Assembly: GCA_903933805.1 (NCBI GenBank)
Contig: CAIZLM010000258.1
Span: forward strand, 1 to 44,362
From: an uncultured Bacteroidota bacterium
GTDB lineage: Bacteria > Bacteroidota > Bacteroidia > Chitinophagales > Saprospiraceae
Direction: 5' to 3'
DNA length: 44,362 nucleotides
Position 1 is the first letter of the stretch. Every line of letters starts with the position of its first letter. The position numbers and the translations under genes were made by a program. Shown here in pieces: positions 2,203 through 44,254 of the stretch. The notes beneath the pieces were generated by a model. It worked only from the letters and a program-made list of their open reading frames with translations. It had not been told where the DNA came from and did not search any database.

Positions 2203-2241
2203 CCACTTTTGGGCCAGACAACGCGCCTCCGAACCAGTTGC
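2203..2241 (+). mobile_element. MITE fragment R1 (right half only)
   Basis: Decayed right end of the window-wide GTAAC...GTTAC element: a ttgggccagacaacgcgcc-type arm ending in GAACCAGTTGC. No left half can be recognised. It lies 25 bp beyond the stop of the 2267-4159 minus-strand gene. Confidence 0.7.
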
Positions 2242-2266
2242 AAATTGGTGTTTGCCAAACAAACAA

Positions 2267-4159
2267 CTACACCAACCTCGAAAACCGAACGTTGGAATAC
2301 GGAAAATCAATGCCCATCGCAAAAAAGGCAAACAGGCCTCCTACAACCGCCGCCACCACCGTCTCCCAACCCAAACCAGGCGCTACTGAAAGCGCCTCCG
2401 CCGGTATGACGGTCATCAATATGCCAACCATTACCGACAAAATGGCTGTCCACTGGTACAACCGAAGGCCCCTTACAACGAGCGTTTGTGCCTCTCCACG
2501 ATAAGCCTCCTCCACAAAACGACCCAAACCGGTCAATATCAAATATTGCCCAAAAATAAACGGCGCCGAAAAATGATGCCCCCAAAGTGACCACAACACC
2601 AAACCAACCAACAACAACCACAACATCGCGTAAAGCTGTGTCGGATGCAGCAACCGACCTTTTAACCCTGAAACATTGACCACCCTCGATCGACTGTGAA
2701 AAAAACGTATCCCGATTGTCGGATTGTCCACAGGCCGCCCATGACAACAACCGTTGACCAAACACCTTAACCGGCCAATTGCCTGTACCCATGGCATGAC
2801 CACCGAAATCACCGCTATGATCACCCAGACATGGACACCCATCGCCCAAACAGCAAGGCTGCCAAAGGGTATGCCCACCAAAGCCCCATAATACCCAAAT
2901 GGCCTTTTTAACTTCTCCGACCCCTCTACTACCTGGGCCCAAATCGCAGAAAATACAATGACAATGACCGCAAATACCAGAATAGACCATGCATAGACCG
3001 GACCAGATAGATACCCTGCCAACAAAATACCCAAAAAAGCGCCAAGCCCAATGTAAAAACCGTGGTTGATCACCCTGACCTTGCCAAAAATCCACTCCCG
3101 CCAGGAATTCGCGATCTCTTCAGCCGTGCTTTTCAGGAATATCCAAATAGCGCCGTAATGGGACGACAATGCAAATATGACCAGGGAAGTAAGCAGGTGC
3201 AACAAGGAGGATTGACTGTTGGAAAGCGACACCAAACTGAGCAGGATCGCCAAAAGGCTGAACAACAGGAAATACCGACGCGATTGTCGAACAACGGCGC
3301 TGTATCCCATGAAAACCATGAAAAGCGGAACAGCGGTTAACATTCTCACCAAATTCCATCCAGCACCAGCGCTGAAATAACCCCCCGGCAGGTATTGCGC
3401 GCCCACCGTTGGATGTATGATCGCTGAAAAAATGGAACACGCCAACCCTATGATCGCAGAAATTGACCAGTCCAATAAATCATTTTTTCTGTTGATAAAA
3501 ATTGGAACCGCCATGACCAGTATGAAGACCAGCACACGCAACGCCGTATTTTCAAAAAATGGGTGCACAAGCACCGTGTTGCCTAACAACGGTGGGGTGT
3601 TTTCACACAGTTTCAATACCAGATAATTCCCCACCACCAACAAACTCGCTACCCAAAACACAGACGCAAGCCGATCTCTCCACGTTGTCAACGCGGGGCT
3701 GTCTGTCGGAAGATCCAACACCGTGCGAAGAACAGACCCGGGGAATCGCTCCTCCAAGTCAATTTTTTCGTACCCCCACACGAGGGCGACCATTCCCAAT
3801 ATCGTTGTAGGCGCTACCAGCCACAAACCACTGGCAGAACCCGTCACGACCGCAACCCCAACCACCAAGAAGCCAAAACCCCAGTAAATAGGATGCCTGA
3901 AAAGTCGGTAAGGGCCTGCCGCAACAAATTCAGGCGGCGGAAAGGAGTTCATCGGCAAACCTTTGCCGTATTTTCGCAAAGCAAACATCCCCCACAACAG
4001 CAGGAATATCCCGACAACAACCAGCAACAAACCGGAAGTCTTCGACGCAATGGCCGGAAATCGAACGATCGATTCGGTAAACACAGCCCAATACCACAGC
4101 CCCGCCGGCACCAACACCAAAAAGAGAAAAGCGTACAGAATTTTACCAAGTGTTTGCAT
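2267..4159 (-). CDS. Methyltransferase-like / Lgt-like polytopic membrane fusion protein
   Basis: A 630-residue polytopic membrane protein with two recognisable parts. Residues ~1-140 resemble isoprenylcysteine carboxyl methyltransferase / phospholipid methyltransferase proteins (GPYRLFRHPIYWGF at 82-95, then EKIDLEERF at 131-139). Residues ~360-590 resemble prolipoprotein diacylglyceryl transferase (Lgt): GRLRCLVNGCCHGR at 462-475, HPTQLY at 505-510 and GRFVEEAYRGE at 546-556. The middle (~160-350) is hydrophobic and unassigned. Bacterial Lgt is normally a stand-alone protein of 260-300 residues, so this is probably a paralogue with another lipid-modifying role rather than the housekeeping Lgt. 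The ATG at 4157-4159 begins a clean first membrane segment. The gene lies downstream of the squalene/phytoene-synthase-like pair, separated from it by MITE E1. Confidence 0.8.
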   Translation of the reverse strand: MQTLGKILYAFLFLVLVPAGLWYWAVFTESIVRFPAIASKTSGLLLVVVGIFLLLWGMFALRKYGKGLPMNSFPPPEFVAAGPYRLFRHPIYWGFGFLVVGVAVVTGSASGLWLVAPTTILGMVALVWGYEKIDLEERFPGSVLRTVLDLPTDSPALTTWRDRLASVFWVASLLVVGNYLVLKLCENTPPLLGNTVLVHPFFENTALRVLVFILVMAVPIFINRKNDLLDWSISAIIGLACSIFSAIIHPTVGAQYLPGGYFSAGAGWNLVRMLTAVPLFMVFMGYSAVVRQSRRYFLLFSLLAILLSLVSLSNSQSSLLHLLTSLVIFALSSHYGAIWIFLKSTAEEIANSWREWIFGKVRVINHGFYIGLGAFLGILLAGYLSGPVYAWSILVFAVIVIVFSAIWAQVVEGSEKLKRPFGYYGALVGIPFGSLAVWAMGVHVWVIIAVISVVMPWVQAIGRLRCLVNGCCHGRPVDNPTIGIRFFHSRSRVVNVSGLKGRLLHPTQLYAMLWLLLVGLVLWSLWGHHFSAPFIFGQYLILTGLGRFVEEAYRGEAQTLVVRGLRLYQWTAILSVMVGILMTVIPAEALSVAPGLGWETVVAAVVGGLFAFFAMGIDFPYSNVRFSRLV

Positions 4160-4189
4160 GGTCTGGATCGGTTCTATTGTTGTTGTTTT

Positions 4190-4351
4190 GTAACTGGTTA
4201 GCGTGGTCGCGTCTGAGACAAAAAAGTGGCCATTTTTTGCCAGACGAAGCGGATTTTTTTGACCGTAGCAGCGCTACGGTCAAAAAAATCTGCGAAGGAT
4301 AGCGGAAAATGGGCCTTTTTGGGCCAGACAGCGTGCCACCTAACCAGTTGC
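4190..4351 (+). mobile_element. MITE E1, long form, 8-bp duplication GTTGTTTT
   Basis: Complete 162-bp copy. The left end reads GTAACTGGTTAG and the right end CTAACCAGTTGC. The 8-bp direct repeat GTTGTTTT flanks it exactly (4182-4189 and 4352-4359). The centre contains an 18-bp perfect inverted repeat, GATTTTTTTGACCGTAGC and its complement around AGC, so it can extrude as a hairpin. It was inserted beside an older element end (R6, 4360-4374). Confidence 0.93.
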
Positions 4352-4359
4352 GTTGTTTT

Positions 4360-4374
4360 GCAACTGGTTAGGTG
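4360..4374. mobile_element. MITE end fragment R6 supplying a stop codon
   Basis: GCAACTGGTTAGGTG, one terminal arm of the element family without its partner. Read on the minus strand it is CACCTAACCAGTTGC, and its TAA (4368-4370) is the stop codon of the CrtC/AttH-like gene. E1 was later inserted next to it. Confidence 0.7.
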
Positions 4375-5234
4375 TTTTTTAGCGAGGTATTTTGTTGTTT
4401 TCCATTGAATTCAACCAATTCGTGTATGGCTTTTCCACGACCAATCACCGCCCCATGACGCAACAACGCACCCCCACTGAGCCATTTGTGCTCCGCTGCC
4501 AGCAGAAAGGGGAGGGGTACCCCACGCTTAAATCCCGGCATAAAGGGCAATAGCTTTTTGACCACTGAGAAAATTTTTTTCTCCGATTCCAACACCACCT
4601 GCCGGTCTAGTTGCAGTTCTAAGTCTTTTTCGGAAACAACAATTCGGTCGTCTTCGATGACGCCGTTTTGTATTTTTTCTCCATTCACCCACAGCCATTG
4701 TTGCCTTACTTGCGACCTAAGTTCTATCCACACCCAGTAGTGTTCCTCCGAAGAGAACCGCCCCCAACGCAGTTCCCGCATCGGTATTTTCCAAGGAAAC
4801 ACCGTGAGCATCAGTTGCTCGACGTACCCGGTCCCCTGGATGATGGTGCCATCGTCAAATTGAAGGGTTACCTTGGACGATGGTTGATGACAATGCCAAT
4901 CGAGATGCCCAGCACCATCATCAAACAACCTGGCCTGAAGCGGCGGGGCCTGTGATACCCAACGCCCTGATACCCCATATTTTTCATCCTGCCACGTGAT
5001 CGTATTACCCTTGCAAACAGGGGCCTGCACAGCCCTAAACCCGGAAGTTTCCCGCACACCGGTCGCCGGATCGTACCTCAACCAACTGGCGTACGAAACT
5101 GTCCACCCTTTCCATCCGAGCTTGGCCGAATAAAAAATCATGGCCTCTCCATGCTCCCCGACGACATCAAGAAACCATTTGTCGAGGTAAAAATCGCCCT
5201 GTGGTGTGTTTGTGTGGCCGTTTTCTGGTTTCAT
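4368..5234 (-). CDS. CrtC/AttH-like lipocalin-fold protein (carotenoid 1,2-hydratase-like)
   Basis: A 288-residue soluble protein rich in Trp and aromatic beta-strand patterns (KLGWKGWTVSYASWLRYD near residue 38, HYWVWIELRSQVRQQWLWV near 165). I match it to the CrtC (hydroxyneurosporene synthase) / AttH lipocalin superfamily, whose members hydrate or bind isoprenoids; the match is by overall pattern, not a diagnostic motif. Its start codon overlaps the stop of the upstream squalene/phytoene-synthase-like gene by 4 bp (5231-5234, ATGA), so the two are almost certainly co-translated, and this supports an isoprenoid-related job. The C-terminus (QQNTSLKNT) ends in a stop codon supplied by a MITE end, so the last residues may have been altered by that insertion. 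Confidence 0.7.
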   Translation of the reverse strand: MKPENGHTNTPQGDFYLDKWFLDVVGEHGEAMIFYSAKLGWKGWTVSYASWLRYDPATGVRETSGFRAVQAPVCKGNTITWQDEKYGVSGRWVSQAPPLQARLFDDGAGHLDWHCHQPSSKVTLQFDDGTIIQGTGYVEQLMLTVFPWKIPMRELRWGRFSSEEHYWVWIELRSQVRQQWLWVNGEKIQNGVIEDDRIVVSEKDLELQLDRQVVLESEKKIFSVVKKLLPFMPGFKRGVPLPFLLAAEHKWLSGGALLRHGAVIGRGKAIHELVEFNGKQQNTSLKNT

Positions 5235-6085
5235 GGCGTCTTTGTTGACTCGGACAGAATTTTTCGAAATACTTTTCTGGCAGGCAATTCATATACCAAG
5301 TAGAAGGTGACCCTGGAAAGCAACGAGAATTTACCCTCCGGCATCCTGCGGTGATGCTCCTCCAACAAAGCGAGTCCCGCCTCTGCCCGAAGACGAAACC
5401 ATTTTTGTATCCCCAAAGCACGTGGGTTGTGCAAGTCTTCGCGACGAATGCCCAAACGAGCACACTCCTCTTGGGAAATATTCACATATCCGGCAGCTAT
5501 ATCTGATTCAAAATCCTCCAAATCAAATTGATAGCGGGACGCAGTGCCCAACGGTTCCAGCAAAGGGTATTTCTCCGGATCTTCCTTGAAAATTTTGAGG
5601 GTTGCCCGGATGGTACCCCGTATATCCAACAAATGAAAATGATGGATCAGCGCCTCTTCTGAAAAAATCATCAACCGCCCCCTCCGCTTGGCATCAAAAA
5701 GTAGTGACGTTAAAATATCGGTTGTTTCCGCGCTGAAATCTGTTCCAATTTTAGATGCCAATTCAAAACAATAGCGCATCAAATAATCCACATCATCCTG
5801 CGGGTGGTCCGGAAATCTAGAAAACCTAAGCTTTTCAGTGATGTAGGCACTCGCATCCTGATGCACGTCCGGCAACGGCGCATCACCATCGACCACATCG
5901 TCCAAATAACGCATCAAGGTGTAATAAGACTCTAGCAATGCACCCCTCGTAGGGGCCAGTGCCGCGTATTTGAACAACCGGAGGTACCGGATAAATGATT
6001 GAAACTTCCAACCCCGCTTCTCCAACATGTGCTGATACACGCGCCTGCGCATTTGTTCCGCATGTTGGTCAAGTTGATGCATCAT
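5231..6085 (-). CDS. Squalene/phytoene synthase-family protein
   Basis: Trans-isoprenyl diphosphate head-to-head synthase fold, cytoplasmic or membrane-associated. The first Asp-rich motif is intact (YYTLMRYLDDVVDGD, near residue 60 from the start used here). The second is atypical: where phytoene synthases have a DxxED segment, this protein has DLEDFESDIAAGYVNIS, still acidic and followed by the family's GYVNIS/GRVYLP-like stretch. I chose the ATG at 6083-6085 (284 residues); a TTG six codons upstream and an ATG one codon downstream are alternatives. It forms a two-gene translationally coupled unit with the CrtC/AttH-like gene. The product cannot be told from sequence: squalene, phytoene and a C30 carotenoid precursor are all possible. 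Confidence 0.85.
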   Translation of the reverse strand: MMHQLDQHAEQMRRRVYQHMLEKRGWKFQSFIRYLRLFKYAALAPTRGALLESYYTLMRYLDDVVDGDAPLPDVHQDASAYITEKLRFSRFPDHPQDDVDYLMRYCFELASKIGTDFSAETTDILTSLLFDAKRRGRLMIFSEEALIHHFHLLDIRGTIRATLKIFKEDPEKYPLLEPLGTASRYQFDLEDFESDIAAGYVNISQEECARLGIRREDLHNPRALGIQKWFRLRAEAGLALLEEHHRRMPEGKFSLLSRVTFYLVYELPARKVFRKILSESTKTP

Positions 6086-6116
6086 TTCTGTGGTTTTTTT
6101 CAACGGATAGGGTAGC

Positions 6117-6160
6117 CGTGTCTGATAAAAAATGGCATTAGAAGAACACAGCGTGCCACC
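6117..6160 (+). mobile_element. MITE fragment R2, decayed short form
   Basis: Degenerate copy with the tctgataaaaaatggc segment of the left arm and acagcgtgccacc of the right arm, both in plus orientation. The outer GTAACTGGTT ends are lost. It lies just upstream of the squalene/phytoene-synthase-like gene. Confidence 0.6.
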
Positions 6161-6292
6161 TGCACAATGTTAATTTTACCCAACTTTGTACGGTCAATTT
6201 TCAGCATCAGCCGTGCAAAAAATAATGACAGGCGTCGCGATCAAGGATGATTTGGATCATGCCCAATAGCAAGCAAAGGCTCAATAAAAAAT

Positions 6293-6445
6293 CGGTGGTC
6301 GCGTCTGAGACAAAAAGTAGCCTTGTTTTGCCAGACGAAGCGGATTTTTATAGGCCATAGCAGCGCTGTGGTCAAAAAAATCTGTGAATTGTGGCGGAAA
6401 ATGGGCCTTTTTGGGCCAGACAGCGTGCCACCCCTAACCGGTTAC
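6293..6445 (+). mobile_element. MITE E2, long form, left end lost
   Basis: Long-form copy in plus orientation lacking the outer ~12 bp at the left (it starts at ggtggtcgcgtctgag) but complete at the right (CCTAACCGGTTAC). The central hairpin is partly decayed (cagcgctgtgg). It ends 6 bp before the stop of apaG. The rest of the 6086-6451 gap holds R2 and about 130 bp with nothing recognisable. Confidence 0.88.
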
Positions 6446-6451
6446 GAAAAT

Positions 6452-6838
6452 TTAATTCAATTTAGCGGGCATACACAACCTAAACTGCGGGACGGGTACA
6501 TCAAAATTAGTATCTTCATCGAGACGGGTTAGGAGAAAAGTGCCCAGCATTTTACCCAAATCGGTTTTTAAGTCGCAAAAAGAGGCGTATCGGTGGTATC
6601 CACCAGGCTGCAAAACAGGCTGTAGCCCGACAACGCCCTCGCCTTCCACTTCTCGGACAGTGCCGCAGGCATCATGGATAAACCAATGACGCCGAAGCAG
6701 TTGCACGGCATAATCATTGCCATTTTTTATCGTAATTTGATACCCAAAGACAAACCGGCCACCCCTTGGGTCGGAGTGGTTGGGTAAGTATTGGGTTTCC
6801 ACCGTAATGGTGATGCCGTTGGTCGTTTGTATTTCCAC
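6452..6838 (-). CDS. apaG: ApaG family protein
   Basis: Small single-domain ApaG protein of 128 residues, the usual length, with an immunoglobulin-like beta-sandwich fold. The signature blocks are present: TTNGITITVETQYLP at the N-terminus, FGYQITIKNGNDYAVQLLRRHW near residue 30, and GVVGLQPVLQPG near 66. The start at 6836-6838 is GTG; no ATG in frame fits the family N-terminus. ApaG is linked to Co2+ resistance and dinucleoside tetraphosphate metabolism in enterobacteria, but its biochemical role is unclear. It stands alone on the minus strand with MITE E2 directly after its stop and E3 upstream. Confidence 0.93.
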   Translation of the reverse strand: MEIQTTNGITITVETQYLPNHSDPRGGRFVFGYQITIKNGNDYAVQLLRRHWFIHDACGTVREVEGEGVVGLQPVLQPGGYHRYASFCDLKTDLGKMLGTFLLTRLDEDTNFDVPVPQFRLCMPAKLN

Positions 6839-6914
6839 GCCCGAAAGTTAGGGGAGTTACAGCGAAACAACCAAAAAGAAAATTTTGGGTAATGCCCTTT
6901 TTGGGAAAAAAGTA

Positions 6915-7063
6915 GGTGGCCGCGCTGAGACAAAAAATGGCCATTTTATGCCAGACGAAGCGGCTTTTTGCAGGCCGTAGCAGCGCTACGGTCAAAAAAA
7001 TGGGCGAAGTAGGTCGGAAAATGGACCTTTTTTGACCAGACAGCGTGCCACCTAGCCAGTTAC
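6915..7063 (+). mobile_element. MITE E3, long form, in a divergent promoter region
   Basis: Long form in plus orientation. It starts at ggtggccgcgctgagac without the outer left 12 bp, has an intact central hairpin (CCGTAGC-AGC-GCTACGG), and ends CTAGCCAGTTAC. It fills most of the 289-bp space between the divergent apaG and metalloprotease genes, so it may influence either promoter. Confidence 0.88.
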
Positions 7064-7127
7064 TTTTATTTTATTAGACGAATAAAGCGCAACTTTGGCT
7101 ATTATTGCGTCCTAAATCGCTACCTGC

Positions 7128-9665
7128 ATGAGCAAAAATTCCTACCTGTTTTCCGCCTTGGTGTCGCTGGTACTGTTCTCCAGCCAACACGTTTCGGCCC
7201 AAACCACGCCAACCAAAACCGATTCTGCCAAAATAGTGGTGAAAACCGCGCCAGCCGCTGCCGACAGCACCGGAAAAGAAAAGAAAAAAGGCCCCAAGCT
7301 GTTCTCGGATATCATCACCGCCAAAGCAAGTTCCATGTACGGCCTGGTAACCGTACACCGCGTGGAAGAAAAATACTACCTCGAAATCCCGGATTCTATC
7401 TTTGGACGCGACATCATGGCCATAACGCGTGTTGCCAAATCGCCCACGGGCGCTGGTTACGGCGGGGAGGAAGCCAACGAACAGGTCATTCGCTTCGAAC
7501 GCGGCCCAGCCGATAAAGTCTTCATCCGAGCCATTGACTATCGAAATGTGAGCACAGACTCTCTCCAACCCATCTACAAGGCCGTCCGAAATTCCAATGT
7601 GGACCCCATCGCTGCCGCTTTTGACATCAAGTCTATCCGAAAAGACACTTCCATTTTGATAGAGGTGACCGATTTTTTTAAAGAATCAAATCAGGTATTC
7701 TCTCTGCCGCCATTGATGAAACAATCGTACAAAATCAATGAGCTGCAAAAAGACCGGAGTTACATCACCAGTATCCGATCTTACCCCATTAATGTGGAAA
7801 TTCGCAGCGTTAAAACCTTCAGCGTTTCTCCGCCTTCTCTGAAACCTTCCGGTGGTGGCGATCCCTTCGAGCCCGTTAACCTGCCCGGTGGCATCGCCGC
7901 AGGCGCCGTCACCTTCGAACTCAATACGTCCCTGATTCTGTTGCCAAAAACACCCATGCGCAAGCGACTATTTGACCAAAGAGTGGGCTATTTTGCAACT
8001 GGATACACTGTCTTTGACGATAATTCTCAAAAAGCTGCCGATGAAACCATCGCCGTTCGCTGGCGCTTGGAAGCACGAAACGCCGCAGACGCCGCCCGTC
8101 AGCAAAAAGGCGAGAAAATTGAGCCAGCCAAACCCATCGTTTACTACATCGACCCCGCAACCCCCCAGAAATGGCGCGCCTTTTTGAAAAAAGGCATCGA
8201 AGATTGGCAGCCCGCTTTCGAACAAGCTGGCTGGAAAAATGCCATCCAAGCACGTGATTGGCCGGAAAACGATACCACCATGAGCCTGGAAGACGCTCGG
8301 TTTTCTGTCATCCGCTACTTCGCCTCCGAAACCCAAAATGCTTACGGCCCCAATGTGAGCGACCCGCGATCCGGAGAAATTATTGAAAGCCACATCGGTT
8401 GGTTTCACAATGTGATGCGACTGCTCAAAATGTGGTACACCATTCAAACTGGCGCCACAGACCCAAGATCGCATAAAAAAGAACTGGACGACAACCTCAT
8501 GGGTAGCCTGGTTCAATTTGTAGCAGCCCATGAAGTGGGGCACACCCTCGGCCTAAGACACAATTTCGGGGCAAGCAGCGCTACACCCGTAGCAAAACTC
8601 CGCGATAAAAAATTCCTAGAACAAAATGGCCACACGTCCTCCATCATGGACTACGCCCGCTTCAACTACGTAGCTCAACCAGAAGATGGTATCACCGACC
8701 TTTTCCCACGGGTAGGCGATTACGACCGCTGGGCCATCGAATGGGGATACAAGGCTATTTACAACACAAAAAGTGCCGAAGAAGACAAAAAAGTGCTCAA
8801 CAGGCTGTACCTCGACAAAGCGGCCGGCAATAACCGCCTGCACTTCCTGACGGAAAGCAGCCCATACGACCCTCGCGCACAAAGCGAAGACCTCGGAGAC
8901 AATGCCATGACGGCTTCTGACTACGGCATCAAAAACCTCCAGAGAATCCTGCCAAACATCGCGGCATGGAGCAAAGAGGAGGCTGAAGACTACGAAGAAG
9001 TGGCAGAAATATACAACAACGTGGTCGGACAATACCGCCGTTATATGGGCCATGTCACCAAATGGGTCGGTGGTGTATTTGAAACTCCCAAGAGCTCAGA
9101 CCAAGTCGGCGTGGTGTATGAGACGGCGCCAACAGCCATGCAACGCGATGCCGTCGCCTTTCTCAACAACCAGCTCTTCCAAACACCGCTGTGGCTCCTA
9201 AACCCCTCAATCCTGAAACTTATCAAGCCCGAAAACGGGGTGGTGGCGATCAACCGAATTCAAGAAAATTCCTTGAACAGCCTGTTCTCTTCAGACCGAC
9301 TACAACGCATGATCGAAAACGAAGCAGCAGACCCCAACACCTACTCCGTAGCAAACCTGTTCGACGACCTGCGGTCCGGGATCTGGTCAGAAATGAAGGG
9401 CGATGAACCAATCAGCGTACACCGTAGAAACCTTCAAAAAATATTTTTGGAAAAAATGATCGCGCTGTACAAACCAAGCACGCCATCAACAGCTGCTTCC
9501 TTCGACCTCAAAAAGTCTGACATTACATCGGTTGCCAGGGCTACGCTGCTGAAATTACAAGCGGAAATTGGCCAGGCCGCAGCCACGACCAATGATACCA
9601 TGAGCCGCTATCACCTCCAAGATTGCCTCAGCAGGATAGAATCAACTTTTGACAAAGGAAAATAA
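7128..9665 (+). CDS. Secreted zinc-dependent metalloprotease (metzincin-like, DUF5117/DUF4953 type)
   Basis: An 845-residue exported protease. The N-terminus is a signal peptide (YLFSALVSLVLFSSQHVSAQ). The extended zinc motif HEVGHTLGLRHN lies at residues 468-479 and a Met-turn-like SSIMDYARFNY about 35 residues later, as in metzincins. The upstream half (YGLVTVHRVEEKYYLEIPDSIFGRD onward, given here in outline) matches the DUF5117 segment of the large Bacteroidota zinc-dependent metalloprotease family. Length and domain order are typical. No T9SS sorting domain is visible at the C-terminus (ESTFDKGK), so it is probably periplasmic or outer-membrane associated. It stands alone; a terminator and minimal MITE E4 follow. 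Confidence 0.92.
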   Translation: MSKNSYLFSALVSLVLFSSQHVSAQTTPTKTDSAKIVVKTAPAAADSTGKEKKKGPKLFSDIITAKASSMYGLVTVHRVEEKYYLEIPDSIFGRDIMAITRVAKSPTGAGYGGEEANEQVIRFERGPADKVFIRAIDYRNVSTDSLQPIYKAVRNSNVDPIAAAFDIKSIRKDTSILIEVTDFFKESNQVFSLPPLMKQSYKINELQKDRSYITSIRSYPINVEIRSVKTFSVSPPSLKPSGGGDPFEPVNLPGGIAAGAVTFELNTSLILLPKTPMRKRLFDQRVGYFATGYTVFDDNSQKAADETIAVRWRLEARNAADAARQQKGEKIEPAKPIVYYIDPATPQKWRAFLKKGIEDWQPAFEQAGWKNAIQARDWPENDTTMSLEDARFSVIRYFASETQNAYGPNVSDPRSGEIIESHIGWFHNVMRLLKMWYTIQTGATDPRSHKKELDDNLMGSLVQFVAAHEVGHTLGLRHNFGASSATPVAKLRDKKFLEQNGHTSSIMDYARFNYVAQPEDGITDLFPRVGDYDRWAIEWGYKAIYNTKSAEEDKKVLNRLYLDKAAGNNRLHFLTESSPYDPRAQSEDLGDNAMTASDYGIKNLQRILPNIAAWSKEEAEDYEEVAEIYNNVVGQYRRYMGHVTKWVGGVFETPKSSDQVGVVYETAPTAMQRDAVAFLNNQLFQTPLWLLNPSILKLIKPENGVVAINRIQENSLNSLFSSDRLQRMIENEAADPNTYSVANLFDDLRSGIWSEMKGDEPISVHRRNLQKIFLEKMIALYKPSTPSTAASFDLKKSDITSVARATLLKLQAEIGQAAATTNDTMSRYHLQDCLSRIESTFDKGK

Positions 9666-9704
9666 CCGCGTCAGAACACTCAAACACAGTATGCTAAAAA
9701 CGGC

Positions 9705-9736
9705 GTAACTGGTTGGGTGGCACGCTAACCAGTTAC
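9705..9736. mobile_element. MITE E4, minimal 32-bp form, 8-bp duplication AAAACGGC
   Basis: Only the two terminal arms remain (GTAACTGGTT ... TAACCAGTTAC). The direct repeat AAAACGGC flanks it exactly (9697-9704 and 9737-9744). The right copy of the duplication is also the base of the terminator stem, so the insertion hit the foot of the metalloprotease terminator. Orientation is ambiguous because both inner arms look like the left end. Confidence 0.9.
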
Positions 9737-9778
9737 AAAACGGCAACCAATTCACAGTGGAGTTGGTTGCCGTTTTTC
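9737..9778 (+). terminator. Intrinsic terminator of the metalloprotease gene
   Basis: Perfect 14-bp arms AAAACGGCAACCAA (9737-9750) and TTGGTTGCCGTTTT (9763-9776) with a 12-nt loop; the stem ends in T's on the plus strand and A's begin it, so it could act in both directions between this gene and trxB. The following ~175 bp up to the trxB stop shows nothing I recognise. Confidence 0.85.
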
Positions 9779-9954
9779 GTACACATTGGTTCAATGTCGG
9801 ATGGCAACTGTCGAATGCATCATTTACAGACGCAGAAAGTGGTGATGTCCTGTTTAAATACCACCATCGCAGATAGTTCGTGACAAATACCCGCCCAAGG
9901 CACTGGTCGGATACCCATACCCTAAGATAAAAAGCGACCCAACCGTGCATCAAT

Positions 9955-10884
9955 TTAATACCCTTGCTCCACAAGGTATCGCTCAGCATCGAGCGCAGCC
10001 ATACAGCCGGTTCCAGCAGCCGTAACGGCCTGACGATATATTTTATCCTGTGCATCGCCACAAGCAAACACGCCCGGTATGTTGGTAAACGTGCGACCGG
10101 GTTGGGCAATGATATAACCGCTGTCGTCCAATTTGAGCCAATCCTTAAAAATACCGGTATTGGGCTGGTGACCAATTGCAACAAAAAAACCGGTTATTTC
10201 CAATGTACTCACCTCCTGCGTTACATTGTTTCGAATGCGAACGCCCGTAACACCGTCTTCCCCCAACACTTCCTCCGGTGACGTATTCCAATGGACGATC
10301 AAATTGGGGGTATTGAGCACGCGTTCCTGCATAATTTTTGAGGCGCGCATTTCTGATCTGCGCACCAATAGGTGTACCTCTGAACAAATTTTTGCCAAAT
10401 AGGTGCTTTCTTCGGCTGCGGTGTCACCGCCACCCACAATGGCTACTTTTTGCTTTCGGAAGAAAAAACCGTCGCAAACAGCACAAGCGGAAACGCCCTT
10501 GTTCTCCAACTCATGCTCACCGGGGATACCAAGCCACTTGGCACTGGCTCCGGTGGCAATGATGACCGTTGACGCCTCTATCTCTTGGCCACTTTCAGCC
10601 CAGAGCTTGTGCTTGGGGCCTGTGAAATCCACTTTCACGATCATCTCATTCCGAATGACCGTTTCAAAGCGTTCGGCTTGTTTGCGAAAATCTTCCATCA
10701 TCTCCGGGCCATTTCGACCTTCCGGATAACCTGGATAGTTTTCTACTTCATTGGTGATGATCAACTGGCCTCCCGGTTGAGGACCAGTATAAAGCACCGG
10801 GTTCAACCCGGCGCGGGCAGCATAAATAGCAGCGGCATAGCCAGCCGGGCCGGAGCCCACGATGAGACACTTGACTTTTTCCAT
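9955..10884 (-). CDS. trxB: Thioredoxin-disulfide reductase
   Basis: Cytoplasmic FAD/NADPH enzyme that reduces thioredoxin. The N-terminal FAD-binding motif is GSGPAGYAAAIYAARAG (residues 10-26), the redox pair CAVC is at 134-137, and the NADPH-binding GGGDTAAEE motif follows about 20 residues later. The C-terminal FAD segment FACGDAQDKIYRQA is also present. I start it at the ATG 10882-10884 (309 residues, the usual length); an in-frame upstream Met would add 18 Cys-rich residues unlike the family. A -7 box lies 8 bp upstream of this ATG. It is not in an operon with the nucleotidyltransferase gene, which lies upstream beyond MITE E5. Confidence 0.96.
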   Translation of the reverse strand: MEKVKCLIVGSGPAGYAAAIYAARAGLNPVLYTGPQPGGQLIITNEVENYPGYPEGRNGPEMMEDFRKQAERFETVIRNEMIVKVDFTGPKHKLWAESGQEIEASTVIIATGASAKWLGIPGEHELENKGVSACAVCDGFFFRKQKVAIVGGGDTAAEESTYLAKICSEVHLLVRRSEMRASKIMQERVLNTPNLIVHWNTSPEEVLGEDGVTGVRIRNNVTQEVSTLEITGFFVAIGHQPNTGIFKDWLKLDDSGYIIAQPGRTFTNIPGVFACGDAQDKIYRQAVTAAGTGCMAALDAERYLVEQGY

Positions 10885-10892
10885 AGTAATTA

Positions 10893-10900
10893 CAAAGGTA
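10893..10900 (-). promoter_or_regulatory. Bacteroidota-type -7 box upstream of trxB
   Basis: TACCTTTG on the minus strand, matching TAnnTTTG, 8 bp before the trxB ATG, which would make the mRNA nearly leaderless. No TTG box at the standard 19-21 bp spacing was seen, so this is tentative. Confidence 0.45.
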
Positions 10901-10960
10901 ACACAGTGTTGGCAGGAGCAGGTTCCAAAGAACAACAATTTGACAACAATTTGACCAAAC

Positions 10961-11040
10961 GTAACTGGTTAGCGTGGTCGCGTCTGAGACAAAAAAGTGG
11001 CCTTTCTTTCGTCCAGACAGCGTGTAGCCTAACCAGTTAC
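10961..11040 (+). mobile_element. MITE E5, short form, no target duplication
   Basis: An 80-bp short copy with perfect 12-bp termini GTAACTGGTTAG and CTAACCAGTTAC (right inner part gtgtagcct). Flanks GACCAAAC and TTTCACTC do not match, so it may be a recombinant of two copies or an old insertion. It lies 6 bp past the stop of the nucleotidyltransferase gene. Confidence 0.9.
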
Positions 11041-11046
11041 TTTCAC

Positions 11047-12051
11047 TCAGTCAAAATCAATCTCGGTGTTGTCCCCGATGTTAAGGCTCAGGTTCATCCC
11101 ACGAATACTGGCGTCGCTGCCAATGACCGAATGTTTCAACACCACCTCTTCTAAGGCGGCAAAATTACCAACAATACTGTCTTGTATGATCGAACGCTGA
11201 ATACTGGCATTGTCACCAATCGTAACGTGTGGACCAATAATGCTGTTGCTGATTTGGCAATTGTCGCCCACTGCCACAGGATGAATAAAGATGGTATTGT
11301 CAAAATCCGGCAAAATTGGCGGGGTGGTAAATTTCCGATCGCGCTGATCCAGCAACACAGCGTTGGTTTCCAACAATACTTCTTTGCGGCCGCAGTCAAA
11401 CCAGTTGTTTACGGTAAGCGCCTGAAAATACACGCCTTGTTCCGTCATGTATTGCAAAGCATCCGTCAACTGAAATTCACCAACGGTGCGCATATCATGC
11501 AGTATGAGGTAATCAATCGCACGCAACAGTGCCGGCACTTCTTTTACCTTATACAGGCCTACCAGGGCCATATTTGATTTTGGAATACGGGGTTTCTCAA
11601 CCATGCGCAGCACCCTGCCATCCTCTCCAAATTCTGCGACGCCAAAATCTCGTGGATCTGCGACTTTTTTTACGCCCAGACACGAGTGCGGACAATCCAG
11701 CATCTGACGAAGGTCCATTTCGAAAATGGTGTCTCCAAATGCAATAAAAATTTCGTCTTCGTCTTCAATGGTCTCTCGCGCCGTAGCAATGGCATGTGCC
11801 GAACCCTCGCGGTGTTCCTGGTACACAAACTCAACCTTCAAATCGGGGTAGGTTTCTTCGATGAAATGACGAATTTTTTCCCCCAAATAGCCCAGCACAA
11901 ACACAAAATCATTCAATCCTGCCTCCCTGAGCTTGTCCACAATGAAACAAATAATGGGTTTGCCGGCCACCGGCATCAGTGGCTTGGGTTGGGTGTACGT
12001 ATGTGGGCGGAGGCGCATGCCCGCCCCTGCAACGGGGATGATGACTTTCAT
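11047..12051 (-). CDS. Sugar-1-phosphate nucleotidyltransferase with left-handed beta-helix tail
   Basis: Cytoplasmic enzyme of the NTP-transferase family that activates a sugar 1-phosphate as an NDP-sugar, related to RmlA/GlmU-type proteins. The N-terminal signature VIPVAGAGMRLRPHTYTQPK, with KPLMPVAGKP just after, is at residues 3-30. The C-terminal ~90 residues show hexapeptide-like repeats (IFIHPVAVGDNCQISNSIIG, then VTIGDNASIQRS), indicating a left-handed beta-helix. The start is the ATG at 12049-12051 (334 residues). The in-frame extension to 12153 is not coding: it is translated from MITE E6. Substrate cannot be told from sequence. It is a lone gene with a MITE on each side. Confidence 0.92.
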   Translation of the reverse strand: MKVIIPVAGAGMRLRPHTYTQPKPLMPVAGKPIICFIVDKLREAGLNDFVFVLGYLGEKIRHFIEETYPDLKVEFVYQEHREGSAHAIATARETIEDEDEIFIAFGDTIFEMDLRQMLDCPHSCLGVKKVADPRDFGVAEFGEDGRVLRMVEKPRIPKSNMALVGLYKVKEVPALLRAIDYLILHDMRTVGEFQLTDALQYMTEQGVYFQALTVNNWFDCGRKEVLLETNAVLLDQRDRKFTTPPILPDFDNTIFIHPVAVGDNCQISNSIIGPHVTIGDNASIQRSIIQDSIVGNFAALEEVVLKHSVIGSDASIRGMNLSLNIGDNTEIDFD

Positions 12052-12088
12052 GGTGTTTTCGAAACGCGAATGGGTTGAAACAAAAAAC

Positions 12089-12165
12089 GCAACTGGTTGG
12101 GTGGTCGAGCCTGAGACAAAAAATGGGCCTTTTTTGGCCAGACAGCGTGCCACCTAACCAGTTAC
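12089..12165 (+). mobile_element. MITE E6, short form, 7/8 duplication CAAAAAAC/TAAAAAAC
   Basis: A 77-bp short copy from GCAACTGGTT to CCAGTTAC. Flanks are CAAAAAAC (12081-12088) and TAAAAAAC (12166-12173). It lies 37 bp upstream of the nucleotidyltransferase ATG and just downstream of a possible -7 box, so it would be transcribed in the 5' leader. Confidence 0.9.
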
Positions 12166-12172
12166 TAAAAAA

Positions 12173-12180
12173 CAAAGGTA
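12173..12180 (-). promoter_or_regulatory. Possible -7 box for the nucleotidyltransferase gene
   Basis: TACCTTTG on the minus strand, upstream of MITE E6. If used, transcription would start close to the left edge of the leader containing the element. No correctly spaced TTG box is visible, so confidence is low. Confidence 0.4.
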
Positions 12181-12257
12181 GTGGGAATGGAGGGAGGAAT
12201 ATTGAATAAGGCGCTCAAAAAGGATGATTGGTGTGCAGGCATTTCACCTTTCCACCC

Positions 12258-12295
12258 AAAAAACAGAAGCCACCCCGAAAACGGAGCGGCTTCTG
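12258..12295 (-). terminator. Intrinsic terminator of the esterase-like gene
   Basis: Arms CAGAAGCC (12264-12271) and GGCTTCTG (12288-12295) with an inner CCG-AAAA-CGG. On the minus strand the stem is followed by TTTTTT. It ends transcription from the T9SS esterase-like gene at 12366. The 12052-12365 gap holds this terminator plus MITEs E6 and E7. Confidence 0.85.
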
Positions 12296-12297
12296 AC

Positions 12298-12361
12298 GGT
12301 CGCGTCTGAGACAAAAAAGCGGGCCTTTTTGGGCCCGACAGCGTGCCTCCCAACCAGTTAC
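12298..12361 (+). mobile_element. MITE E7, short form, left end lost
   Basis: Short form in plus orientation starting at ggtcgcgtctgagac directly after the terminator stem, without the outer GTAACTGGTTAG, and ending CCCAACCAGTTAC. It ends 4 bp before the stop codon of the esterase-like gene. Confidence 0.87.
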
Positions 12362-12365
12362 TAAA

Positions 12366-13883
12366 TTAGTTCAAAATTATTTTTTGCGTGACAACGCCTT
12401 CTTTAAACGTTACACGGGCAAAATAAACACCCGCAGCAAGGTTGTTGCGTTTCACCTCAAACTGGTTGGCGTTTACGTGCAGGTATGTTGCACAACGACG
12501 ACCGGCAAGGTCAACAATTTCAATGTTTTGCATCTCAAAACGGTCTGCCGTTCTGAGCGTAAAGTCACCGGCAGTCGGGTTTGGAACAGCGGTCATACCC
12601 ACTTCACCAGTACTGAGCTCTTTGGTGTTCACCAATTGGCAGTCACTCGTCAGTCCCAACACGGCACAGGCACGTGGCGCAAAGTAACGCATGATGGTGT
12701 CCATGTACGCTGTGTGTGTGGCAGCCAAGGTTTCGCAGTTCGGGCTGGTACTCAAGTTGTATGGGTTAGCGCTGGAAGAGAACGCCCAAGGACTGGAGTC
12801 GTTGCCCAAGAAAGGATAGAAACCTTCAATGTTTCCATTGAGTGATCTGGCTTTCGTGGAAAGAGCATCCGTCAAATTGGCATTAACCATGACGTTTTGA
12901 TTGCCATAGTCGTTGATAATCTGCTGAAAAGAGCAGCTACCAGACACTTCTACTACAGGAAGATTGACGGGTGGTGGCACCAATACGATACCGTTGCCGC
13001 AAGGGGCATAAGGATCGGTTGGATTGTGAAAAGAGATGATGGGGGTTTCACCCGCCTCAACCCAACTGGTATCACCCAATGCACCGCCAAGATTTACAGC
13101 AAGGGCAAAATCGGAGCTGTATCCAACGTGATTGGGGTAGCAAAGGGTATCGCCGGCTGGGTAAGGAAGCCCGGGAACACCCGGATTTACACCATAAGAA
13201 GTACCATTGATGTTGCCACTCAAAAACTCTAAGACCATTGGTCCCAGTGGCGTCACAAATTTAGGAATGTACGTATCGGTGATGGTGTCCAATGTAGCGG
13301 AAGCCGTGGAAATGTAACCGCCCGTACCAATACCCCAAAGGGTGATTTTACTTGGGTCAATTTTATAGCTGTTGCCGTTGGCTGCATCTTTTTTAAAGTA
13401 CCGAATACAAGCACGTGAATCCTGCACACCGCGGTAAGCGGCATTGATGAGGGTGTAAACACGCTCGGTTTGGGTACTGGCGATGGGGTTCCAACCAAGA
13501 CGGTAGTCGGCAACTGCGGCTACATAACCCATTTTGGCAAGACGGGTTGCAATGGCAACATCGTCAGCGTCTTTCCTTGTCCCAGTACAACCGCCATTGA
13601 CTTGCGGTGGAAGGAAGTTGCCGGTGTGCAAAATAATCACCAAAGGACGTGCGGTTTCAACATCACCTTCCGGCGAATACAAATCAAAACGCAGTGTCTC
13701 AGGAATAGCCTGACCATAACCATTCGGTGGCGCAGCCAAATACAGTACGGTCGCGTTTATTGCGTACGCAATATCTGGACTCACACTGACATTGGAGAAC
13801 ACCTCGTCGAAATACCGACGCTGTGCTGAGAGCGACGCCGTTACAGCGACGGTCAACAATAAGAGTAATTTTAAATGCTTCAT
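12366..13883 (-). CDS. T9SS-exported alpha/beta-hydrolase (esterase-like) lacking the nucleophile Ser
   Basis: A 505-residue exported protein. It has a signal peptide (MKHLKLLLLLTVAVTASLSAQ), an alpha/beta-hydrolase region, and a ~75-residue T9SS type A sorting domain at the C-terminus (NPTAGDFTLRT ... GVYFARVTFKEG, ending in KIILN), so it should be secreted across the outer membrane and anchored or released. In the hydrolase region the oxyanion segment reads HTGNF (86-90) instead of HGGGF, and the nucleophile elbow reads GIGTGG (184-189), with Gly in place of Ser. The later HNPTDPYAPC segment looks like the Asp loop. Catalysis by the usual triad is therefore doubtful. The ATG at 13881-13883 is the start; upstream in-frame codons do not fit a signal peptide. 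The TonB-receptor gene lies 82 bp upstream on the same strand, so the two may be co-transcribed. Confidence 0.85.
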   Translation of the reverse strand: MKHLKLLLLLTVAVTASLSAQRRYFDEVFSNVSVSPDIAYAINATVLYLAAPPNGYGQAIPETLRFDLYSPEGDVETARPLVIILHTGNFLPPQVNGGCTGTRKDADDVAIATRLAKMGYVAAVADYRLGWNPIASTQTERVYTLINAAYRGVQDSRACIRYFKKDAANGNSYKIDPSKITLWGIGTGGYISTASATLDTITDTYIPKFVTPLGPMVLEFLSGNINGTSYGVNPGVPGLPYPAGDTLCYPNHVGYSSDFALAVNLGGALGDTSWVEAGETPIISFHNPTDPYAPCGNGIVLVPPPVNLPVVEVSGSCSFQQIINDYGNQNVMVNANLTDALSTKARSLNGNIEGFYPFLGNDSSPWAFSSSANPYNLSTSPNCETLAATHTAYMDTIMRYFAPRACAVLGLTSDCQLVNTKELSTGEVGMTAVPNPTAGDFTLRTADRFEMQNIEIVDLAGRRCATYLHVNANQFEVKRNNLAAGVYFARVTFKEGVVTQKIILN

Positions 13884-13965
13884 AATGAAAGTGATTGGTT
13901 TATAATATTCGAAGAAAATCAACGCCAAAGTGACTTGCTTTCGCCTCAACTTCTGCGTCAAAAGA

Positions 13966-16788: not shown

Positions 16789-16820
16789 ACTGACAGCTTA
16801 TTTATTTCGTAAAAACTTAA

Positions 16821-16884
16821 GTGGGGCGTATGAGCAAAATAATGGGCATTTTTTGGATAGACAGCGTGCCACCGAAGTAGTTAC
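16821..16884 (+). mobile_element. MITE fragment R3, decayed short form
   Basis: Degenerate short copy (tgagcaaaataatgggcattttttg-type core shown in outline, then gacagcgtgccacc, ending GTAGTTAC). Plus orientation; the left end is eroded. E8 is inserted 8 bp to its right. Confidence 0.75.
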
Positions 16885-16892
16885 TTTCAAAT

Positions 16893-19649: not shown

Positions 19650-19651
19650 AA

Positions 19652-31425: not shown

Positions 31426-31768
31426 GTGTCGTTGATTGCAAGGCGAAATATCGGGGAATTTTATGCCATCCAATGCCCGTTGGGCGATAATTCCAAAATA
31501 ACAACCAACGGCAGCGATATTCAGTATAGGCCTAAAGTGCCCGTTTACCCCTTATTTCGTGGAAACTTTACCGTATTCTGAAATAAAATCGCTTCAAATG
31601 GTAAAAAAAATCCGATTTTATGGTCTCAACCACAACCACCCAAGCAGTTGCCAAAATCAGTATTCACCATTTACCATTCAATTATCTTCCCTACCTTTGT
31701 GCTGCTTTTTTGGAAACAATACCGAATGTTGTTTTGTTTCAATGTACTTAAATTTCGATTTTCAAAAT
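31426..31768. other. Intergenic stretch between divergent mutase and adenosylhomocysteinase genes
   Basis: About 340 bp, AT-rich, without a convincing open frame. It holds TACCTTTG at 31692-31699 on the plus strand, a possible -7 box for ahcY with MITE E12 between it and the ATG, but no TTG at proper spacing. Nothing resembling a cobalamin or SAH riboswitch was recognised. Confidence 0.5.
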
Positions 31769-31917
31769 TTAACTGGTTAAGTAGTCGCAACTGAGACAAA
31801 AAAGTGGCTTTGTTTTGCCAGAAGAATCGATTTGTTTGACCGTCGCGCCGCTACAGTCAAAAAAATCCGAAAAATGCTCCTTTTTTGTCTCAAATAGCCT
31901 GTCAACCAACCTGTTAC
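31769..31917 (+). mobile_element. MITE E12, diverged long form, 6/8 duplication
   Basis: Diverged long copy (about 149 bp) with an outer left TTAACTGGTTAA, a damaged central hairpin (ccgtcgcgccgctacagtc), and right CCAACCTGTTAC. Flanks TTCAAAAT (31761-31768) and CTCAAAAC (31918-31925) share TCAAAA. It appears older than the other long copies and lies 54 bp upstream of ahcY. Confidence 0.8.
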
Positions 31918-33304: not shown

Positions 33305-33467
33305 GTAACTGGTTAGCGTGGTCGCGTCTGAGACAAAAAAGTGACCATTTTTTGCCAGACGACGCGGATTTTTGTAGGCCGTAGCAGCGCTACGGTCAAA
33401 AAAATCTGCGAAGTAGGACGGAAAATGGGCCTTTTTGGGCCATACAGCGTGCCACCTAACCAGTTAC
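33305..33467 (+). mobile_element. MITE E13, long form, 8-bp duplication TTTCAATC
   Basis: The best-preserved long copy, 163 bp, with perfect 12-bp ends and a perfect central hairpin (CCGTAGC-AGC-GCTACGG). Flanked exactly by TTTCAATC (33297-33304 and 33468-33475). It is inserted between the ahcY stop (16 bp before it) and the ahcY terminator. Confidence 0.95.
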
Positions 33468-34423: not shown

Positions 34424-34584
34424 GTAACTGGTTAGTGGGCCGCGTTTGAGACAAGAAAGCGCGTATTTTTTGCCTGATGAAGCGGGTTTTTGTAGACCGT
34501 AGCAGCACTACGCTCAAGAAAATCCGGAAGTATGGCAGAAAATGGGCCTTTTGAAACCAGACAACTTGCCACAAATCCAGTTAC
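34424..34584 (+). mobile_element. MITE E14, long form, 8-bp duplication CAATCACA
   Basis: A 161-bp copy, GTAACTGGTTAG to AATCCAGTTAC, with a partly decayed hairpin. Perfect flanks CAATCACA (34416-34423 and 34585-34592). It separates the TetR gene from tolC-like by most of their 199-bp gap. Confidence 0.93.
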
Positions 34585-35982: not shown

Positions 35983-36061
35983 GTAACTGGTTAGCATGGT
36001 CGTGTCTGAGACAAAAAAGTGGACCTTTTTGGGCCGGACAGCGTGCCACCTAACCAGTTAC
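35983..36061 (+). mobile_element. MITE E15, short form, 8-bp duplication TTTTCTTC
   Basis: A 79-bp copy with perfect 12-bp ends. Perfect flanks TTTTCTTC (35975-35982 and 36062-36069). It lies between the TolC-family gene and the adaptor gene. Confidence 0.94.
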
Positions 36062-41974: not shown

Positions 41975-41984
41975 GGCTTCGTTG

Positions 41985-43580: not shown

Positions 43581-43633
43581 ATTCAGTATGATAGGTAAAA
43601 ATTGAGGGTGCTTAGAGGAACTATTTTTGGTTG

Positions 43634-43711
43634 GTAACTGGTTAGCGTAGTCGCGTCTGAGACAAAAAATCGACCTTTTTAGGCCAGACAGCATGCAAGC
43701 CAACCAGTTAG
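43634..43711 (+). mobile_element. MITE E16, short form, 7/8 duplication TTTGGTTG/TTTTGTTG
   Basis: A 78-bp copy, GTAACTGGTTAG to CCAACCAGTTAG (last base changed). Flanks TTTGGTTG (43626-43633) and TTTTGTTG (43712-43719). It lies 53 bp upstream of the YceI ATG and 20 bp after the stop of the OB-fold gene. Confidence 0.92.
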
Positions 43712-43731
43712 TTTTGTTGCAGCGGGAAGCA

Positions 43732-44139
43732 TCAGCGGACCTCCACGCAGTTGTTCAGTTGTACATCAAAGTTGAGGCCACTACAGGTACCCTTGAAAGT
43801 CACATTTTCCCCAGGGGAAAACTGGGTGCGAACATTTGGGTTGGTGGATGAAAGCTCGCAACGAACCCCGAAATCTCCCCCTGCATCCAGGCTTACTTTT
43901 ACGGAACCTTCATCGTTGGTTACTTCTTTTACCTTTCCGGTGACTGCCATTACCTTGTCGAGGTATTTGGCGTTACCGGCGCCTTCATCGCCGTTGTACT
44001 CCGCAAACAGTGCGGCTGCATCAATGGCCACATCGGTCTTGGCCGTTGACATGTTCTGTCGGGGCTTGTTCCATTGGTAATAGGCATCTGCGCCTCCAAT
44101 ACCGATCAACGCCAATAATAGGAGCAGGATTCGTTTCAT
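43732..44139 (-). CDS. Small exported OB-fold (tRNA_anti-like) protein
   Basis: A 135-residue protein with an N-terminal hydrophobic segment (MKRILLLLLALIGIGGADAY), which is a signal peptide or anchor, then a single OB-fold domain of the tRNA_anti-like group (KYLDKVMAVTGKVKEVTNDE, FGVRCELSSTNPNVRTQFSP and KGTCSGLNFDVQLNNCVEVR). Similar small proteins are often next to YceI or cytochrome genes in Bacteroidota; function unknown. The ATG is at 44137-44139; MITE E17 begins 18 bp upstream. Confidence 0.85.
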   Translation of the reverse strand: MKRILLLLLALIGIGGADAYYQWNKPRQNMSTAKTDVAIDAAALFAEYNGDEGAGNAKYLDKVMAVTGKVKEVTNDEGSVKVSLDAGGDFGVRCELSSTNPNVRTQFSPGENVTFKGTCSGLNFDVQLNNCVEVR

Positions 44140-44157
44140 AGCTTAAATAGTTTGAAA

Positions 44158-44234
44158 GTAACTGATTGGGTGGCACGCCGTTTGGCCCAAAAAGGTCCAT
44201 TTTTTGTCTAAGACGCGAACAACTAGCCAGTTAC
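44158..44234 (-). mobile_element. MITE E17, short form, minus orientation, 8-bp duplication GTTTGAAA
   Basis: The only well-preserved copy in minus orientation (the right-type arm ggtggcacgc comes first, the gtctaagac arm last). 77 bp, with perfect flanks GTTTGAAA (44150-44157 and 44235-44242). It sits between the OB-fold gene start and the cytochrome-like gene stop. Confidence 0.93.
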
Positions 44235-44254
44235 GTTTGAAATCAAGTGTTGTG

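Follow-up and report, generated by a model that had tools for sequence, protein, structure and literature searches.

The 44,362-nt window analysed here, contig C258 (positions 1-44362) of the genome of an uncultured member of the Saprospiraceae, is strewn with copies of a miniature inverted-repeat transposable element (MITE), a non-coding hairpin bounded by the terminal inverted repeats GTAACTGGTTAG and CTAACCAGTTAC. It is very probable that these MITEs were moved in trans by a transposase of the insertion sequence (IS) family IS66, that they were shortened after insertion, and that their core is older than the ends, which have been exchanged. According to the proposed mechanism, an IS66-family transposase acting in trans would recognise the GTAACTGGTTAG ends and place the element in A/T-rich, mostly intergenic DNA, making an 8-bp duplication; the full-length hairpin of about 163 bp would then tend to lose sequence through deletions between direct repeats of the arms, leaving 76-80, 32 and 12 bp; and the core, the older part, would have changed its ends several times, and probably its transposase partner too.

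With up to two mismatches allowed, GTAACTGGTTAG matches the window 32 times against 1.97 expected, a count reached by none of 100 shuffles. Iterated nhmmer finds 18 copies in the window (Table 1), two of them weak at about 22 bits, besides a 32-bp micro-form and two end fragments. The initial annotation had counted 17 copies, and so saw a real family, with a slightly different number. Its seven exact 8-bp repeats are all present around elements of the window, the repeat AAAACGGC belonging to the micro-form; its three copies that match at seven of eight flanking positions recur, but two copies, not one, match at six. For one of those two, the copy at 19487, whose flanks are reverse-complementary, the 6/8 match may be chance.

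The genome (G000) comprises 4.2 Mb in 336 contigs, and the genome-wide set of copies comes from iterated nhmmer on 953 kb, in 33 contigs nearly all picked for having matches. This sample contains 245 copies or fragments, 0.26 per kb, none with coding capacity. For the whole genome, whose copy count the initial annotation had proposed to take, only an estimate can be given: scaling by the share of perfect short copies that fall inside the sampled part (25 of 45, a hand count) yields about 440, and scaling by density, a figure inflated by the choice of contigs, about 1,080; the true total probably lies between. Instead of a single 162-bp consensus there are two size classes, mostly of 160-165 bp and 76-80 bp. 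Ends were measurable in 239 of the 245 copies, and 158 are two-ended, with at most three mismatches at both ends and enough flank. An exact 8-bp direct repeat surrounds 53 of these 158, and 81 match at seven or more of eight positions; an exact repeat of 7 bp occurs once and one of 9 bp never, and shuffled pairing of flanks gives a mean of 0.5 exact 8-bp repeats (maximum 3 in 200 shuffles). The repeats, which are A/T-rich, are therefore target duplications with a length of 8 bp, as had been claimed.

When the 78-bp form was used as query against 60 genomes (the own genome and 36 others of the genus among them), matches were found in the own genome and in G025 only; the closest genomes are 85% identical in protein for the gene at 29362-31473, the only gene compared, a divergence judged too great for aligning intergenic DNA. 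Among the matches listed for a pattern from the left arm, at least one exact match lies on a 4-kb contig of an uncultured Flavobacteriales record. One contig of an uncultured Flavobacteriales metagenome-assembled genome (L189, CAJAVU010000113.1) terminates within a copy that likewise has the GTAAC end, so that in this genome, too, the element probably interrupts assembly. Within G000, tandem copies about 5-8 bp apart are seen, for example at C198:30947-31282 and C37:1142-1478.

The window itself encodes no candidate transposase, as the initial annotation had stated: none of the 31 genes, predicted by our own simple script from open reading frames and codon usage, has such a Pfam domain above the cut-off, and the sole transposition-related match, IstB on a PhoH-like ATPase, lies below its cut-off. 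Within the genus, IS66 transposases occur in 11 of 42 genomes, own included, and two congeners have IS66 elements with the ends of the MITE. In G009, such an element (L177:594-3723) carries GTAACTGGTTAG at both termini (12/12) with TTTTCAGA on both sides, and its transposase protein matches Pfam DDE_Tnp_IS66 (E 1.6e-32). Two near-identical insertions, presumably IS1-like, interrupt this element. G025 holds both the MITE and an internally deleted IS66 element (L178:350-1399) with the same 12-bp ends as that of G009 and flanks matching at 6/8. A search with the G009 protein found two degraded transposase fragments in the own genome besides the locus on contig C180. The fragment on C332 shows 63-68% identity over 63-68 residues and is followed by CTAACCAGTTAC (12/12), with a copy of the element directly upstream; that on C104 is an N-terminal piece followed by the right end CTAACCAGTAAC (11/12). 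Because both remnants have matching right ends, the partner transposase was probably once present in this genome, and has since decayed or escaped assembly.

IS66 ends begin GTAA, as was seen on IS66 elements of several genomes, and 8-bp duplications were found on IS66 elements of G000 (C216), G007 and G009. IS66 elements with 8-bp repeats are also tabulated in the accessible portions of PMC3281130. To judge by its ends, a MITE in G012 is part of a second MITE-IS66 pairing, since its left end, GTAACTATCCAGCCGC, agrees at 16 of 16 positions, and its right end at 15 of 16, with the corresponding end of the IS66 element located on the own genome's contig C180. A MITE in G205 has a left end, GTAAAAACTTAG, identical to that of the IS66 elements of G007. 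Given the matching ends, the duplication length and the Pfam domain, the IS66-type mobilisation put forward in the initial annotation is well supported, and we infer that the transposase with these ends moved these copies.

The 163-nt form folds end to end as one imperfect hairpin of -93.8 kcal/mol, against -46.7 for shuffled sequences (z -10.7; none of 200 shuffles was as low). Four sizes occur, 160-165, 76-80, 32 and 12 bp, and the two smallest can be derived from the long form directly, the 32-bp form by deletion between AGCGTG repeats and the 12-bp form by deletion between GTTA (or TAAC) repeats. The whole genome contains 11 copies of the 32-bp form (up to three mismatches) and 28 of the 12-bp form, and the reversed patterns were found 0 times each. 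A duplication of at least 7/8 flanks nine of the 11 32-bp forms, compared with none of 110 cross pairs; for the 12-bp form the figures are 6 of 28 against 5 of 756 cross pairs, or 10 of 28 against 17 of 756 at 6/8 and above. In 61 of 97 short copies the junction coincides with direct repeats at least 4 bp long, as against 6.6% of random junctions, and exact duplications are about equally common around long (27/70) and short (26/84) copies. The presence of at least 20 junction classes in the 97 copies speaks against a single master lineage of short forms, but since the arms hold an imperfect direct repeat about 85 bp apart, the position of the junction fits repeated deletion and recombination among copies alike. 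We read the size series as shortening of the hairpin after insertion. G223 has an 88-bp version of its own element, which is of the TA type, so hairpin shortening is not confined to the window's genome. In C72 and C89 of G000 a 12-bp scar abuts a full element.

A BLAST search with the 163-nt form, covering 396 genomes of the order with at most two candidates scored in each, matched 10, namely the own genome and 9 of the 395 others. Outside the own genome, one of 16 matches reaches the query end (G421, from position 1); the others are confined to query positions 16-138, and their flanks show different inverted ends. A covariance model of the 112-nt core, built from 11 cores and run on 298 genomes of the family (E up to 0.001, scoring 12 candidates in each), matched 164 genomes in 78 of 112 genera, own included, counts that contain false positives at this threshold, because weak matches include sequences such as L362 in G223 (E 1.2e-6), which looks like an unrelated perfect hairpin. 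The best match is at or below 1e-10 in about 107 of the 298 genomes by hand count. In 400 kb of G223, seven places match up to E 0.1, and inverted ends are present at all three whose E is about 1e-10 or lower.

At least four end types enclose this core, with a total length of 158-164 bp in most copies. Type I, with GTAAC or GTTAC ends (GTAAAAACTTAG in G205) and 8-bp duplications, was found in G000, G012, G205, G421, G513, G527, G536, G570 and G604; outside the own genome, 19 of 33 distinct places show an exact 8-bp duplication, a count somewhat favoured by the choice of boundaries. Type II, TAGACTT..AAGTCTA or close variants, occurs in G008, G205, G223, G303, G321, G436, G489, G539, G568, G595 and G599. 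Of its 12 places in G223, 7 have TA at both flanks and 5 at a single flank, the TA being probably a duplication but perhaps a piece of the end itself. Type III, GAAGTTG.. or close variants (G442, G446, G469, G487, G489, G503, G539, G573 and G605), has exact 3-bp direct repeats in 7 of 13 places, judged by eye. Type IV, GAGCATG or similar (G223, G250, G445, G480, G483 and G534), has 3-bp TNA repeats (TTA, TAA, TGA) in 7 of 8 places, also by eye, and in both of two further places in G223. Still other ends belong to a few copies in G069, G134 and G392. Further end variants were seen in G223 (C1:1-400000; L374, L369, L370, L359), among them GAGCAGGTTTAA with TGA repeats, and its weaker matches have TACCCTGCACG and other inverted flanks. 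Because one 112-nt core lies between at least four end types in other genera, we take the core to have changed its ends.

Could the element instead have arisen from one IS66 element by ordinary internal deletion, with the cores found elsewhere descending vertically from an old MITE whose ends drifted? The match of its ends to the IS66 elements of congeners fits such an origin, as does the clustering of end types on a tree of 92 cores, which needs at least five changes of type compared with at least 32 in each of 300 label shuffles. We nevertheless regard it as unlikely. Only the first 12-13 bp are common to MITE and IS66 elements, and duplication lengths differ with end type (8, 3 and probably TA), a difference that drift would hardly yield. 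Two end types moreover share a genome in four cases (I and II in G205, II and IV in G223, II and III in G489 and in G539), and within the own genus TA-type copies of G008 stand beside the GTAAC-type copy of G012 in the tree, with node support of 0.79-0.97.

IS66 is the only partner identified, and by their sequence the ends of types II-IV are different from those of type I. For the TAGACTT ends, a DDE_3 (IS630-type) partner was found at none of nine inspected loci, out of 20 in 5 of 12 genomes, and 400 kb of G223 hold no IS-sized pair of such ends; with no autonomous TA-type partner found, the argument that different transposases serve types II-IV is one from ends and duplication lengths. Types II-IV could, on the other hand, represent groups within one family, as groups of IS5 other than IS427 make 3-bp repeats. 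For the IS427 group, 2-bp repeats are given in the accessible portions of PMC3281130.

The fold of the core was examined in 92 distinct cores, all in one reading direction. In these, pairing is intact in 91.5% of pair cells, double changes occur at 34 of 38 pairs, and the covariation score is 0.546, compared with 0.160 for shuffled and 0.08-0.143 for slid alignments, although fitting the alignment to the model biases it towards pairing. In the 11-sequence seed alignment, built without structure, 26 of the 38 pairs already have changes on both sides. A larger alignment gave a similar picture and was set aside because it includes both strands of many copies. Whatever the end type, conservation of the loop and apex bases (GA..C opposite CGAA; TAGC..GCTA) is mostly 90-100%. 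Rfam 15 has no family that matches the window, and for ten loci searched with E up to 1 it returned 17 matches, all under the gathering score.

Among 73 long copies of the own genome, departures from Watson-Crick pairing comprise 144 G.T, 113 A.C (p 0.06) and 226 other mismatches, with 24 compensated changes, so single copies decay freely. Between lineages, compensated changes number 149 and other mismatches 74, and one-step changes comprise 57 G.T against 23 A.C, or 39 against 23 (p 0.056) when five T.G-rich columns are left out. Compensated changes between lineages, set against free decay of single copies, imply that the lineages that persist keep the fold. The simplest reading is that selection for a folded strand, as RNA or single-stranded DNA, keeps the core, with the caveats that quasipalindrome correction and the RNA-based choice of copies bear on these counts.

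What the fold is kept for may be transposition itself: a folded single strand, RNA or lagging-strand DNA, would aid the element's movement, and mainly elements that keep the hairpin would be amplified, whichever transposase is at work. Pairs kept between lineages and lost within a genome (24 compensated against 226 other mismatches), internal-loop bases conserved at 90-98% across end types, and one-step changes that favour G.T over A.C all point this way, and we hold the explanation to be quite possible, at somewhat less than even chances. It is weakened by the smaller G.T excess without the five T.G-rich columns, by the modest difference in the own genome, by the selection of between-genome copies with an RNA model, by the possibility that quasipalindrome correction in replication makes compensated pairs without selection, and by the lack of a significant relation between copy orientation and GC skew (p 0.08-0.13).

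That relation was considered because copies point one way in some regions, 15 to 1 in the window, 20 to 3 in C72 and 12 to 0 in C202, with genes on both strands; on other contigs orientation is mixed. Over all regions the bias is stronger than in simulation (sum of majorities 164 of 222, against a maximum of 159 in 2000 simulations), and neighbouring copies more than 1 kb apart have the same orientation in 80 cases and different orientation in 65 (p 0.24). The window, C72 and C202 have the three most negative GC skews among 25 contigs, the correlation not being significant; GC skew does not explain the bias, and a replication-strand hypothesis was set aside.

A benefit to the host, with mobility secondary and the core retained because it serves, for instance, to terminate transcription or to stabilise mRNA at gene ends, would agree with the great stability of the hairpin and with the closeness of copies to genes, since less than 40 bp separates a copy from a gene's 3' end in 76 of 175 cases and from a 5' end in 67 of 205. 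Known bacterial MITEs are, according to the accessible portions of PMC3733652, transcribed and foldable and affect mRNA stability. Yet gene context argues against it. Among 222 copies of at least 30 bits, 14 are located within predicted genes and 18 lack a gene on one side; the remaining 190 divide into 34 convergent, 49 divergent and 107 co-directional settings, compared with 48, 51 and 92 expected from gap lengths, so that the deviation (p 0.035) is towards fewer convergent sites. Relative to co-directional genes, 43 copies have the same orientation and 64 the opposite one, which is no clear bias (p 0.053). Of the 42 terminator-like sites in 1-20000, only 4 are in contact with a copy, and single copies lose pairing, with 339 unpaired changes (G.T excluded) to 24 compensated ones. 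A terminator role thus finds no support in gene context, and we consider the host-benefit explanation unlikely.

Several observations weigh against transposition by an IS66 partner followed by shortening and exchange of ends. The IS66 element with matching ends that the initial annotation had suggested looking for exists in congeners, but no intact one was found in the own assembly. A search of the own genome with Pfam PF03050 gave three IS66-family loci, none with the MITE's ends (C216 ends in GTAAGCC.. and C180 in GTAACTATCCAG, and the remnant on C186 is of the C216 type), and these are ruled out as partner by their ends. Similarity between MITE and matching IS66 elements stops after the first 12-13 bp, and the interiors share none. 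Fewer than seven of eight flanking positions match in 77 of the 158 two-ended copies, for which decay or recombination must be invoked. Among the 28 12-bp forms, just six show a duplication at the 7/8 level or above, and four or more (L128, L129, L144, L153) represent variant ends that belong to full elements. The excess of G.T over A.C may be inflated by the picking of copies with an RNA model, and types II-IV could be groups of one family.

With these points taken into account, IS66-driven movement of an older core with exchanged ends is still the account we prefer. As to how the ends were exchanged, it is most likely, but unproven, that the hairpin aids its own amplification and was recombined onto the ends of several transposons. 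A bolder proposal, offered tentatively and with odds below even, is that what evolves and moves is the core itself, a folded, non-coding parasite of parasites that preserves its structure and loops, repeatedly acquires the ends served by any transposase that a genome has active, and takes part in amplification through its folded strand; by ends and duplications, the donors of ends would then be an IS66-type element and at least one, perhaps three, others. MITE families are normally defined by their ends, and MITEs are regarded as passive scraps. In the present family conservation lies in the interior and the ends vary, which, if true, would mean that the interior contributes to the element's spread or survival and that a non-autonomous element is able to switch transposase. 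The natural series of hairpin deletions, at insertion sites marked by duplications, is usable for studies of palindrome instability in bacteria.

Table 1. Copies, micro-form and end fragments of the element in the window (flank matches refer to the 8-bp target duplication).
Feature	Position	Strand	Flanks and remarks
Degraded short form	2165-2241	+	Right part alone recognisable; weak, 22.2 bits
Long form	4190-4351	+	GTTGTTTT, exact
15-bp end fragment	4360-4374	+	Inverted relative to right end of 4190 copy, across its duplication
Long form, degraded left end	6287-6445	+	Core match of covariance model
Long form, degraded left end	6904-7063	+	Core match of covariance model
32-bp micro-form	9705-9736	-	Exact, AAAACGGC on + strand
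Short form	10961-11040	+	Both ends 12/12; flanks 3/8, no duplication match
Short form	12089-12165	+	7/8
Short form, degraded left end	12283-12361	+	
Degraded short form	16809-16884	+	8-bp TTTCAAAT separates it from adjoining 16893 copy
Long form	16893-17054	+	7/8
Long form	19487-19649	+	AATTACTT / AAGTAATT, mutual reverse complements; 6/8 as direct repeat
End fragment	21094-21105	+	Stop of gene 19787-21097 falls inside
Short form	29272-29350	+	AAGGTAAC, exact; adjoins further element end 29354-29365
Degraded long form	31505-31651	-	Weak, 21.7 bits
Long form	31769-31917	+	6/8
Long form	33305-33467	+	TTTCAATC, exact
Long form	34424-34584	+	CAATCACA, exact
Short form	35983-36061	+	TTTTCTTC, exact
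Short form	43634-43711	+	7/8
Short form	44158-44234	-	Exact, GTTTGAAA on + strand

Some sites in the window have features of their own. Together, the inverted 15-bp fragment and the 4190 copy's right end make up a perfect 15-bp inverted repeat (4337-4380) around the duplication GTTGTTTT; T6 follows, and the site scores as terminator-like. Inversion of the 19487 element together with one flank (19479-19657) would give its reverse-complementary flanks. The description of all copies as intergenic was nearly right, the predicted genes at 18618-19490 and 19787-21097 being the departures from it, each with its TAA stop codon inside an element end. Proteins of the window include Por_Secre_tail domains and TonB receptors by Pfam, which are associated with Bacteroidota and so assign the genome to this phylum.

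The known system closest in its ends is the IS66 family in its single-ORF (open reading frame) kind, presumably the ISBst12 subgroup, which shares the GTAA start, the 8-bp duplication and, in two congeners, the same 12-bp ends; unlike it, the MITE has no coding capacity, and its interior has no match to the IS elements found. REP sequences are not known to make target duplications, and identity with REP/RAYT systems is ruled out by the 8-bp target duplications. The accessible portions of PMC3733652 describe REPs as abundant palindromes in many prokaryotes, a trait shared with the present element, but of 20-40 bp, and our element has 8-bp duplications and transposon-type ends. Neither GTAACTGGTTAG nor GTAGCAGCGCTAC occurs in any paper of the open-licence literature searched, and no description of this family was found in the titles, abstract beginnings and selected passages of that literature. 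To our knowledge, NEMIS, ERIC, YPAL, RUP, Nezha and EFAR each have one set of ends per family, unlike the core described here, for which many genera together show four or more end types. In other respects these hairpin MITEs of bacteria, as presented in the accessible portions of PMC3733652, resemble it, being non-coding, foldable and gene-adjacent, 70-300 bp long and with inverted-repeat ends. MITECca01 of Cardinium, in the portions of PMC9769881 available, likewise has a high copy number in the same phylum and a parental IS inferred from identical ends; it differs in its IS982-family ends, its length of about 240 bp and its description there as unique to one strain. The Tn3-derived TIMEs, as far as the accessible text of PMC4133298 describes them, are also non-autonomous, with common inverted repeats and mosaics, but they combine constant ends with a variable core and make duplications of 5-6 bp, whereas the present element combines a constant core with variable ends.

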